Source: an uncultured Paenibacillaceae bacterium
GTDB lineage: Bacteria; Bacillota; Bacilli; Paenibacillales; K13
NCBI GenBank assembly: GCA_913056365.1
Contig: CAJXLT010000002.1
Location: forward strand, 248,001-312,000
DNA: 64,000 nt
Reading direction: 5' to 3'
The notes beneath the pieces were generated by a model that was not told where the DNA came from, searched no databases, and saw nothing but the letters and a program-made list of their open reading frames with translations. A program made the position numbers and the translations under genes. Shown here in pieces: positions 42,260 through 46,248 of this stretch (positions are counted from its first letter, which is position 1; each line of letters begins with the position of its first letter).

Positions 42260-43045
42260 ATGGAATTTCGGTTGCAAATGATCGGGACAGGTAGTGCTTT
42301 TGCCAAGAAATATTACAACAACAACGCCTTACTGATGAATCAGGACCGCTCACTGCTCATTGACTGCGGCATTACAGCCCCGATGGCCATGCATCAAGCA
42401 GGCAGAACCTTTCAAGAGCTAGATGGCATTCTCATCACGCATCTTCACGCAGATCACATCGGCGGCTTAGAAGAGGCTGCGTTCGTGACGAAATTTTCGG
42501 GCGGTCGCAAGCTCCGATTGTTCGTGCCGGAATCGTTAATTGCCCCGCTCTGGGAACATTCACTTAAGGCTGGTCTGGAGGATTCGCAATATGGACCAGA
42601 CTTGTCTAGTTATTTCGATGTGGTGCCGCTCGCAGAAGGCGAGCAACAGGAGCTCTTACCGGGGATTTCCGTCGAAATTATGCAAACAGATCATATTCCG
42701 AACAAGGACAGCTTCTCTTTGTTGTTAAACAGGAATTTCTATTATAGTGCAGATACGGTATTTCACCGAGAGCTGATCACTTCCATGATTGAGGACAAGC
42801 GATGCGGAGCCGTACTGCACGATTGTCAGTTGGAAGGGAAGCCGACCGTCCATGCAACATTGGACGAACTGCTAACACTGCCTGCACATGTGCAGGACAA
42901 AATCATGCTGATGCATTACGGAGACAACATGGAAGACTACGCCAATCGAAGCGGCAATATGTCGTTTGTTCGACAGGGCGTTATGTATCACATTGAACAG
43001 ACAGGACGCATTCACGCCCTGTCTGTCGAGAATTCCGGCAGCTGA
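42260..43045 (+). CDS. MBL-fold metallo-hydrolase (RNase Z-like)
   Basis: This 261-residue protein has a beta-lactamase fold with zinc motif ITHLHADHIGGLEEAA (~residue 60), TDHIPNKDSFS and YSADTVFHRE, LMHYGD near the end. The overall form resembles RNase Z-like and cyclic-nucleotide-type hydrolases, but the substrate is not evident. AGGAGGGC precedes the ATG. Its last 34 bases overlap the 3' end of the opposite-strand DUF3892 gene. The 270 bases upstream hold no gene. Confidence 0.88.
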   Translation: MEFRLQMIGTGSAFAKKYYNNNALLMNQDRSLLIDCGITAPMAMHQAGRTFQELDGILITHLHADHIGGLEEAAFVTKFSGGRKLRLFVPESLIAPLWEHSLKAGLEDSQYGPDLSSYFDVVPLAEGEQQELLPGISVEIMQTDHIPNKDSFSLLLNRNFYYSADTVFHRELITSMIEDKRCGAVLHDCQLEGKPTVHATLDELLTLPAHVQDKIMLMHYGDNMEDYANRSGNMSFVRQGVMYHIEQTGRIHALSVENSGS

Positions 43046-43260: not shown

Positions 43261-43402
43261 GTAACGTCTCCTCCTTATATGATGACAGTTCCCAAGAGCT
43301 GTTCGCTATATAGTATGAGCATGAAGCACGCAATATATCGGCAAGCAATCTCACGCAGCTTCGCTTGCAGCAGATTTCATAGACGAGGATGGAGAGTGAA
43401 CG

Positions 43403-45019
43403 ATGGTGTTTGTCCGCATAACCGCTCCATTACTAGTTCTGCTTATAGCTCTATATGTCGTATTTGAACGCAACATCGGGTCGCTCCAGTGGTTAGCAAC
43501 CGCATCGGTCGTCCTGCTGTTGACTTTGCTGTTGCCCGCGAGCAAGTTCGTTCGTGTCGTGCGATTCGCCGCACTGGTCGCATTCGCTTATGTAACCAAA
43601 TCCGATTGGGTGCTATTCTTGTTCTTAATGTATGCTTTCATCCATGCCCAGGATCTGACCAAGACGTACCGGGCCAAGTGGGTATTCGCAGTGTATGGCG
43701 CCAGCTTCCTGCTGTTGCAGATGCTTGCACATACATCGATCATGATCTCTCCTGTCAAGATGGCGATATGCGCCCTCACGTTCATCGCAGCCTACTTCTT
43801 AACTTATCATTATCTAGAGGTAGAATCGCGCAACAAGCATCTGATAGACGCGAACCTGAGGCTCGTCAGTCAAGACTCCTTAACCGGCTTGTTGAATTTC
43901 CAAGAATTCCATAAGCGACTTCACACTTTGATCCAGCTGGAGAATCAATTAACGCTTGTCTTGATCGACTGCGCTGATTTGAAATCGATGAACAGTGAGT
44001 TGGGCTTCCTGGAGGGCAACCGGTTATTGAAGAAAGTCGCAGAGCTGATGAAACGCTCCTTCCCAGACGCCTACTTGCTTGCACGCTGCGGCGGCGATGA
44101 GTTCGCGCTCGTGCTGCACCGCATCGACGAAGAAGAGATGATGCTGCGTCTGGAGAGATTCTTGGAAAACAGGCTGCCGGAGATGACAGGTATTCAAATT
44201 ACATACGGGAAAGCGTACTATCCGGAGAACGGGCATACGAAGGACGAATTGTTGCAAATTGCCGAGGAAGACTTATTCATGATGAAGCGCAAGCTATGGC
44301 TCAAGCGGGAGGAGCATATGCTGCGCTCCGAGCAGCTGCGCGTCGTTGGTGAGTTAGCCTCTGGGATGGCACACGAAATTCGGAATCCGCTTACAACGAT
44401 CAAGGGTTTCCTGCAAATCTCCAAGACGAACGACTTTAATATCGAGCCTTGGTATGACCTGATTCTCGATGAGATTAACCGGATGAGCGATTTGACCGGC
44501 GAATTCCTGCAGCTGTCGCGCAATCAAGCGACGATGTACGAAGTGGAACCGCTGCAGCATTGCTTGCAACGAGTGAAGGCGCTCGTCGAAGCGGAGGCGA
44601 TTCGATTAGGCTTCCAGCTCGAATATGTCCCGCATACAGAACCTCTGCTCGTTAGAATGGATCAGGACAAGCTCATTCAAGTGCTCATTAATATTGTGAA
44701 AAATGCGTTCGAAGCGATGGAGCCAGGAGGCAAGGTGACGATTCGCAACGTGGTTGAGCACGGACAGGCCATCATCGATATTGCCGACGAAGGCAAGGGC
44801 ATCCCGGCAGACAAGCTGGACGAGATATTCCTTCCGTTCTATACGACGAAGGATCAAGGGACTGGGCTCGGACTATCGATCTGCCACCGCATCATCTTGG
44901 ATCACAAAGGTTCGATGGAAGTGTTCAGCGAGCTCGGACACGGCACCACGTTTCGTGTGAAATTGCCAATTCATTCCTCGTCTGCTGACGTGACAGAGAC
45001 AGAGCATGCCAACGCCTGA
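43403..45019 (+). CDS. Membrane histidine kinase with internal degenerate GGDEF domain
   Basis: This 538-residue protein has about five membrane segments (residues ~5-140), a GGDEF-type domain (~150-300) and a sporulation-type kinase core: phosphoacceptor His324 in GELASGMAHEIRNPLTTIKG, N box NIVKNAFEAM, G1 DEGKGIPADK and G2 GTGLGLSICH. The GGDEF motif itself (230-234, CGGDEFAL) is intact, and Asp189 and Asn197 are kept. The His and Asp normally at the substrate site are Phe202 and Asn206. It could be an active cyclase, a GTP sensor or a dimerisation module. The kinase part resembles KinA/KinB-type phosphorelay kinases; no response regulator is adjacent. Confidence 0.88.
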   Translation: MVFVRITAPLLVLLIALYVVFERNIGSLQWLATASVVLLLTLLLPASKFVRVVRFAALVAFAYVTKSDWVLFLFLMYAFIHAQDLTKTYRAKWVFAVYGASFLLLQMLAHTSIMISPVKMAICALTFIAAYFLTYHYLEVESRNKHLIDANLRLVSQDSLTGLLNFQEFHKRLHTLIQLENQLTLVLIDCADLKSMNSELGFLEGNRLLKKVAELMKRSFPDAYLLARCGGDEFALVLHRIDEEEMMLRLERFLENRLPEMTGIQITYGKAYYPENGHTKDELLQIAEEDLFMMKRKLWLKREEHMLRSEQLRVVGELASGMAHEIRNPLTTIKGFLQISKTNDFNIEPWYDLILDEINRMSDLTGEFLQLSRNQATMYEVEPLQHCLQRVKALVEAEAIRLGFQLEYVPHTEPLLVRMDQDKLIQVLINIVKNAFEAMEPGGKVTIRNVVEHGQAIIDIADEGKGIPADKLDEIFLPFYTTKDQGTGLGLSICHRIILDHKGSMEVFSELGHGTTFRVKLPIHSSSADVTETEHANA

Positions 45020-45117: not shown

Positions 45118-46248
45118 CTAGCGGTCCGCATGCCGCTGACGCGTCATCTGCTGCCATACCGTACCGACTGCTTCCTCGCCGCCTTCAATGCGTTCCAATG
45201 CCCAAGCAGCCTGCAAGCTCACTTCGAATTCCGGATCATCGACAGTACGCTTCAACGCCGGTACAGCGCTCTCATCTCCTACTTCGTACAGGAATCGAGC
45301 AGCACGCCAGCGCACGAGCTTATTCGCGTCTTCAAGCGCCTCAATCATCGGCTGTATCGCCCGATTATCTCCCAAGTCTGAGATCGTATCCCCTGCTGTT
45401 CGCCGCACTGCGGGGGAATCATCCTTCATCGCGCGGTATAGCAGCGGCAATGCCGCATTGGCTTCTAGCTCGCCTATATGCACAACAGCCAAGCGACGCA
45501 CGGACATATGCTTGTCACCGAGCGCCTTCTCAATGACAGCTGCGCCTTCTGCCGAAGGCTTCCACCGTTCCAATGCTGCGTAACGCTTGCGCCAATCATC
45601 TGCATCGAGCAGCTTCAGCACTTCCGAGTCGTCAAGGCTGCCCTGTATGTCTAAGTCTGCGTCCTTATCTCCTTGAGCTTGTGCCCGGCGCACCATGTCG
45701 GTCAAGCGCTCATCATCATACGCTGCTTCAAGCTCCTGCTGCACCTGTTCAGCAATATCGCGCGGATCTCCGTAACGAATGCCCCAATCCTCCAGCTTCC
45801 GTTCCTTGATCAAGTTCGGGGACGCCAAGCCTGCATTCATCGCTTGCTCTGCAAACCTCGCAGGCAATGCCTCCCTCACCTCTTCCTGCTCAGTACGAAC
45901 ACGAATTTGCATAGGGATGCGCCGGAACGTCTGAACGAATACCCGCACCTCACCGAAGCCGTCAGCAGATTCCGGTGTAGGCTCATTCGTGTCACCGCGT
46001 TGCCCGAACACCTCCCGAACTTGCGCGAGAATCGGCTTCCAGTCTGAACCGGGCACGCGATCCAAGGCTATGAAATCCGCTGTCTGGAATATGCTCTTCA
46101 TACCTTCAATCTCCAGCATGCTCCGAATATAGGTCGGCGCCGAACGCGCATTGTCTGCTGTATATGTCTTGCCTGCATCTACCCGCTCATCCATGTTCAG
46201 CTTCATCGTATTCGGACTCGGGGTCGGTTCGATCGACACGATGTTCAT
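45118..46248 (-). CDS. CvfC/YpgR-like protein: Nfu N-terminal domain plus HEAT repeats
   Basis: This 376-residue protein starts with an Nfu/NifU N-terminal domain (IVSIEPTPSPNTMKLNMDER and SIFQTADFIALDRVPGSDWK). A C-terminal solenoid of HEAT-type repeats follows (~215-376: MSVRRLAVVHIGELEANAAL, SPAVRRTAGDTISDLGDNRA and KLVRWRAARFLYEVGDESAV). This is the conserved virulence factor C family of S. aureus and B. subtilis YpgR. The Nfu N-terminus suggests an iron-sulfur link, but the function is unproven. Confidence 0.88.
   Translation of the reverse strand: MNIVSIEPTPSPNTMKLNMDERVDAGKTYTADNARSAPTYIRSMLEIEGMKSIFQTADFIALDRVPGSDWKPILAQVREVFGQRGDTNEPTPESADGFGEVRVFVQTFRRIPMQIRVRTEQEEVREALPARFAEQAMNAGLASPNLIKERKLEDWGIRYGDPRDIAEQVQQELEAAYDDERLTDMVRRAQAQGDKDADLDIQGSLDDSEVLKLLDADDWRKRYAALERWKPSAEGAAVIEKALGDKHMSVRRLAVVHIGELEANAALPLLYRAMKDDSPAVRRTAGDTISDLGDNRAIQPMIEALEDANKLVRWRAARFLYEVGDESAVPALKRTVDDPEFEVSLQAAWALERIEGGEEAVGTVWQQMTRQRHADR

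Follow-up and report, generated by a model that had tools for sequence, protein, structure and literature searches.

A GGDEF domain embedded in an orphan sporulation-type histidine kinase may serve as a non-cyclising purine-nucleotide sensor

The window, a 64,000-nucleotide stretch of DNA from an uncultured Paenibacillaceae bacterium, encodes a membrane-bound orphan histidine kinase with an internal GGDEF domain (43403..45019, plus strand; 538 residues from the ATG, as established by open reading frame translation and Pfam). Judged from its sequence, there is about an even chance that the GGDEF domain senses a purine nucleotide without cyclising it and transmits the signal within an orphan Spo0-type membrane kinase. 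The coordinates below are those of the window, and all features of the kinase gene lie on the plus strand.

The kinase starts with six membrane helices (residues 1–140, 43403..43822), recognised from AlphaFold2 helices and hydropathy, which form its most divergent part, with a mean pairwise identity of 22% in the window's clade. The last membrane helix continues into the GGDEF domain as residues 141–156 (43823..43870; AlphaFold2 helix 117–156). The GGDEF domain (residues 157–296, 43871..44290) scores 81.5 bits against Pfam PF00990, above the curated cut-off of 23.8, and is followed by the HisKA (DHp) domain (residues 316–376, 44348..44530; PF00512, 50.8 bits) and the HATPase_c catalytic domain (residues 420–523, 44660..44971; PF02518, 92.4 bits). 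The phospho-acceptor His324 (44372-44374) belongs to HisKA and sits within HEIRNPLTTIKGFLQI. His324, Asn430, Asn434, Asp462, Gly488 and Gly490 are all invariant or nearly so, which qualifies the protein as a histidine kinase. The order of six membrane helices, GGDEF, HisKA and HATPase, found by Pfam and AlphaFold2, bears out the first-pass annotation, in which the GGDEF domain had been placed between a membrane sensor and a kinase core.

The AlphaFold2 model is weak overall (pTM 0.37, calculated from five sequences), with low confidence in the linker and DHp region. The six N-terminal helices are positioned within residues 2–156. The fold of the GGDEF domain is well modelled, with block means mostly between 75 and 91, and the kinase core is normal. 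The lowest-confidence stretch of the GGDEF model is residues 191–200 (pLDDT 55), a loop that contains Asp192 to Asn197. A helix comprising residues 280–342 is unbroken in the model, but the confidence is low at residues 307–333. In model comparisons, the GGDEF part matches the Thermotoga maritima GGDEF domain (PDB: 4urg) with a Z-score of 19.6 and an rmsd of 1.9 Å over 140 residues, whereas the kinase part resembles ZraS, HK853 and KinB, with a Z-score of 20.2 for the Geobacillus KinB core (PDB: 3d36).

A second genome of the window's genus carries the fused kinase at 83% identity, and 41 matches that cover both the GGDEF domain and the kinase are spread over 38 of the 61 genomes of the order; the fusion is therefore far beyond chance. 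Among the sampled Bacilli, 58 of 399 genomes, the window's own counted, match a query running from the GGDEF domain to beyond the phospho-histidine (E ≤ 1e-20), and every listed match reaches to six residues or fewer from the end of the query. Members were also found in the phylum outside Bacilli, and four of these were read. The search for the same domain order elsewhere, which the first-pass annotation had proposed, thus succeeded in the order, in Bacilli and in other Bacillota. GGDEF, HisKA and HATPase domains are present in all 12 representatives scanned, and the named hosts include Paenibacillus periandrae, P. agricola and P. aestuarii. The distribution is patchy, with several genera of family f11 devoid of the fused kinase. 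All fused kinases fall on one side of a branch in a kinase-core tree, with a support of 42 and long branches, and a single origin of the fusion is possible. In the open-licence literature, we found no paper on a GGDEF–histidine kinase fusion or on a family of membrane–GGDEF–HisKA–HATPase proteins in spore formers; GGDEF receptors in kinases (SgmT) and GTP-binding degenerate GGDEF domains are already known.

The substrate-site residues of the window protein are a mixture of retained and replaced positions. Translation and alignment verify all the residues named in the first-pass annotation: Asp189, Asn197, Phe202, Asn206 and the GGDEF motif at residues 230–234 (44090..44104). By alignment, the four single residues correspond to Asp327, Asn335, His340 and Asp344 of PleD, respectively. 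The metal-site Asp189 (43967..43969) is retained in 24 of 24 clade members and the base-contact Asn197 (43991..43993) in 23 of them. Phe202 (44006..44008) stands in place of His340, the position being Phe in 21, Val in two and Tyr in one of the 24, and His occurs there in none of the tallied groups. Asn206 (44018..44020) replaces the guanine-contacting Asp344 (22 Asn and two Asp among the 24). A further change, absent from the earlier list, is at the position of Arg446, where the phosphate contact is replaced by Trp299; Trp is found here in 23 of the 24 clade members. By alignment, substitutions of the Phe202 and Asn206 type are fixed features of the family and no peculiarity of the window protein. 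The usual D..FK..ND..GH...GD pattern is kept in seven other GGDEF domains of the same genome, those that were automatically readable, and the altered site is therefore specific to the fused domain.

The GG[DE]EF loop and the metal Asp are present in the window protein and missing in several relatives. The window's clade has the motif GGDEF, family f6 has GSDEF, families f28, f41 and others have DGDQF, and Paenibacillus group g16 of f11 has AGDRF, whereas the four members from outside Bacilli have GGGHF, AGDQF, SGDQF and NGGCF. In the AGDRF lineage the metal Asp, Asn335, Asp344 and Lys442 are lost, and the GGDEF domain is still present.

Diguanylate cyclase activity is unlikely, given the changes at three positions of the substrate site and the GSDEF, AGDRF or DGDQF that relatives have in place of the motif. 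The residues of active cyclases Asp344, His340 and Arg446 are replaced by Asn206, Phe202 and Trp299. It is accordingly improbable that the protein unites a kinase with a synthase of c-di-GMP, or of another second messenger made through the changed base site, even though the window's clade has an intact GGDEF loop, metal Asp and Lys442. A change of product has a model in the Hypr enzymes, in which a changed base-site residue can alter the product; Hypr GGDEF domains are defined by Ser or Thr at the base-contact position together with a GGDE[FY] motif, with Asp at the third motif position (PMC6456294). The window protein has Asn, not Ser or Thr, at the base-contact position and does not qualify as a Hypr cGAMP synthase. 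Moreover, most of the canonical enzymes tested lost their activity when the Asp at the base position was changed to Ser (PMC6456294), and the catalytic Glu is lost in relatives with the same architecture as the window kinase.

The first-pass annotation had also allowed that the domain might be linked to c-di-GMP, which the alignments do not support. The residues from Pro221 to Tyr224 (44063..44074) occupy the place of the inhibitory RxxD motif, which excludes a c-di-GMP inhibitory site in the window kinase, and the motif is found in register in none of the aligned relatives; in three of them an RxxD string occurs close by but out of register. A connection to c-di-GMP by way of this known site is therefore unsupported. 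With 14 further GGDEF matches in its genome, the bacterium probably makes c-di-GMP, and Myxococcus SgmT is a precedent for a kinase whose GGDEF domain binds c-di-GMP (PMC3509222). Even so, with RxxD missing from the window protein and its aligned relatives, it is very improbable that the fused domain is a c-di-GMP receptor.

The conservation of the nucleotide site was evaluated at 19 preset PleD site columns, the substituted ones included and none dropped, against 50,000 random draws. In the 24 members of the window's clade, the mean entropy is 0.42 at the 19 site columns and 1.56 at the other 124, and none of the 50,000 draws matched a value as low, although neither the columns nor the sequences are independent, and the P value therefore overstates the strength of the result. 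The corresponding values are 0.00 and 0.59 in f6 (P 2e-5), 0.53 and 1.10 in the DGDQF group (P 0.001), and 0.75 and 0.93 in the AGDRF lineage (P 0.13). The groups comprise aligned members, with the divergent paralogues L049, L055-L057 and L108 left out, several of which show further motif losses. Outside the AGDRF lineage, all 43 aligned members retain the metal Asp, 42 retain Asn335 and all 43 have Asp or Asn at position 344, while just 30 retain the catalytic Glu371. The retention of metal and base contacts where Glu371 is often lost suggests that the site is preserved more for binding than for cyclisation. Nucleotide binding by the GGDEF domain of the window kinase is plausible on these grounds.

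The AGDRF lineage, which has lost the site and kept the domain, shows that the GGDEF domain also has a structural role free of ligand. It is possible, though not probable, that this is its whole role, and that in every lineage the domain is a nucleotide-free, dimerising spacer that couples helices and relays the membrane signal in the manner of a ligand-free PAS domain. The loss of the metal Asp, Asn335, Asp344 and Lys442 from a domain that persists, and the fixed spacing on the kinase side of the domain in all relatives, are both as expected of such a spacer; a mere spacer, however, has no need of site columns conserved well above the rest of the domain, as they are in the other lineages. Counting against the nucleotide sensor are the loss of the site in the AGDRF lineage, the change of Arg446 to Trp, and the uncertain model of the loop from Asp192 to Asn197.

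The segment from the last GGDEF helix through the phospho-histidine region (residues 288–338, 44264..44416) has the same length, 51 residues, in every one of the 74 main-alignment rows and the ten rows of a second alignment, which includes the four members from outside Bacilli. The GGDEF domain itself, unlike this stretch, varies in length. The segment preceding the domain has 18 residues in 62 of the 74 rows, 39 in eight related rows and 32 in one, and is shorter in three exceptions; the additions of 21 and 14 residues are multiples of a heptad. The three extra heptads belong to the DGDQF lineage (L127-L134) and the two extra heptads to L126. The fixed spacing between the GGDEF domain and the kinase suggests that helices transmit a signal in register across the GGDEF domain to the kinase. 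The proposal that the domain is positioned to relay a signal from the membrane to the kinase thus gains support.

In the mechanism that we propose for the nucleotide sensor, a nucleotide and Mg2+ would occupy the old substrate site and alter how the paired GGDEF domains pack together. The change in packing would pass through the fixed-length linker to the DHp helix and set the autophosphorylation of His324, from which the phosphate would be transferred to Spo0F. We infer the nucleotide binding, the identity of the ligand, the direction of its effect and the phosphotransfer to Spo0F. The position of Asp344 governs the choice of base in GGDEF enzymes (PMC6456294) and is Asn206 here, which makes ATP a candidate alongside GTP; the replacement of the guanine-contacting Asp suggests that the base choice may be altered or relaxed. 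That Asn would suit adenine is chemical reasoning; GTP is possible, and ATP or another purine nucleotide is equally open.

The kinase looks Spo0F-directed, because no response regulator gene is adjacent, the partner-specificity residues are of the Spo0F type, and the same genome encodes Spo0F, Spo0B and Spo0A. The Pfam scan of the window's neighbours revealed no response regulator beside the gene, and no receiver domain was found among the ten neighbours scanned in the loci of six relatives. Residues 331–339 (TTIKGFLQI, 44393..44419), read from the sequence, contain the specificity residues T-T-G-F-Q-I, which are within the range of those of verified Spo0F kinases: TAGFQL (KinA), TVGFQL, TSGFQI (KinC) and TGGFQL (PMC6136694). 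The Spo0F of the genome, encoded at G000:C10:35123-35470, is 71% identical to B. subtilis Spo0F. In the kinase-core tree, the fused kinases group with HEIRNP/HEVRNP kinases, separate from the genome's other kinases, with a support of 90. The classification as a sporulation-type kinase, made in the first-pass annotation, therefore stands. An N-terminal PAS domain is usual in Spo0-type kinases but not universal. Pfam matched no PAS domain in the window kinase; PAS is also missing from the verified kinases KinB and KinD in the table of PMC6136694.

Whatever the GGDEF domain does, the kinase could phosphorylate a response regulator other than Spo0F. The genome has 76 receiver-like matches from which such a target could come, the PAS domain is absent, and the KinD equivalog of NCBIfam (NF053867) gives 183 bits, far under its cut-off of 775. 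We nevertheless regard this as unlikely in view of the missing adjacent response regulator, the Spo0F-type specificity residues, and the grouping of the kinase core with HEIRNP-type kinases and not with the genome's remaining kinases. The NCBIfam kinase equivalogs were rejected as a means of identification, since all those shown score far under their cut-offs. A link to P. polymyxa Kin1038 and Kin1377 was considered and is not claimed; the passages available to us contain no domain descriptions. Neither 0A boxes nor a crude sigma-H –10 word were found upstream of the gene (43261-43405). The Spo0B of the window's genome (L148, G000:C2:657078-657230) begins with hydrophobic helices and resembles the Paenibacillus Spo0B with an N-terminal hydrophobic segment, Spo0B-TM (PMC12826061).

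Upstream of the kinase lies a gene for an Apyc1-family phosphodiesterase of the metallo-beta-lactamase fold (42260..43045, plus strand; PF23023, 281.7 bits), in which the HxHxDH motif reads THLHADH. Its 3′ end overlaps that of a small DUF3892 gene on the minus strand by 34 bases (43012-43045). Each of the 16 f1/f5 genomes whose kinase is of the GGDEF-retaining form has an Apyc1 gene near it, no more than 1 kb away in 13 and no more than 6 kb away in three, and the gene stays there (L004-L016, L018, L021-L024) while the other neighbours change. In four named Paenibacillus loci, Apyc1 is adjacent and the window's other neighbours are absent, save DUF3892 in one. The proximity is not shared by the relatives in f6, f7 and f11. 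Apyc1 proteins from Paenibacillus have been crystallised, and a broad range of cyclic mononucleotides is cleaved by Apyc1-like proteins (PMC9117128). The proximity of Apyc1 and the kinase may reflect inheritance of the gene order or a link in function, and is a lead.

In the window, positions 45118-46248 of the minus strand encode an Nfu/NifU N-terminal domain, a domain known by its Pfam name only, 'Virulence_fact' (PF13769), and HEAT/PBS-lyase repeats. In the DGDQF families, a small gene that starts ...THGGYHTGTLNLxNLSS... follows the kinase immediately, on the same strand, at three loci (L127 263-775, L129 1-334, L133 65-565). Genes for early lipid A synthesis were found in two single-contig genomes of the Paenibacillus-type group g16: lpxC, lpxD and lpxA, all three passing the NCBIfam equivalog cut-offs, are immediately downstream of the kinase in G058 (L054 6011-8660), and lpxC is just downstream of it in G046 (L158, G046:C1:1355222-1356031). 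They are unexpected in g16, which is taken to be a one-membrane group, and none of the four further genomes examined, of which three belong to g16, has lpxC.

The window kinase shares individual features with several known systems. SgmT of Myxococcus xanthus is an orphan hybrid kinase with a C-terminal GGDEF domain that binds c-di-GMP and serves localisation (PMC3509222). Both are orphan histidine kinases in which the GGDEF domain is a receptor and not an enzyme, as proposed here for the window kinase, in which, unlike in SgmT, the domain is located between the membrane part and the DHp and is without the c-di-GMP site. The kinase core and Spo0F-type specificity residues are shared with B. subtilis KinA–KinE, and the six membrane helices with KinB (PMC6011975); KinB, however, has no GGDEF domain, and others use PAS domains. 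Degenerate GGDEF domains can bind GTP and activate an EAL partner domain (PMC10333796). The window domain appears, from its sequence, to be a similar case of a site kept, catalysis lost and a partner controlled, but the partner is a histidine kinase instead of an EAL phosphodiesterase. The degenerate GGDEF domain of GdpP-type proteins, mentioned as having ATPase activity (PMC10333796), is another GGDEF fold with an altered site in Bacillota; GdpP is set apart by its fusion to a DHH/DHHA1 phosphodiesterase and, apparently, by different residues. The active cyclases PleD and T. maritima 4urg/4urs have in common with the window protein the fold, metal Asp, base Asn and GGDEF loop, and differ from it in His340, Asp344, Arg446 and the inhibitory site.

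To our knowledge, the signals sensed by the sporulation kinases themselves are largely unknown. In B. subtilis, a fall in GTP together with a rise in ATP leads to more transcription of kinA and kinB and thereby to more sporulation (PMC6011975). The predicted conserved purine-nucleotide site in the kinase's own chain makes a model of direct sensing testable, and the natural series GGDEF, GSDEF, DGDQF and AGDRF displays a cyclase domain shedding its catalytic residues inside a kinase. As a broader and rather doubtful proposal from these sequences, sporulation-type kinases across Bacillota may use a retired cyclase domain to read the purine pool, as GTP or, through the Asp-to-Asn change, as ATP, with part of the family perhaps working with an Apyc1-type cyclic-mononucleotide phosphodiesterase. 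If true, this would provide a direct molecular tie between nucleotide level and entry into sporulation.
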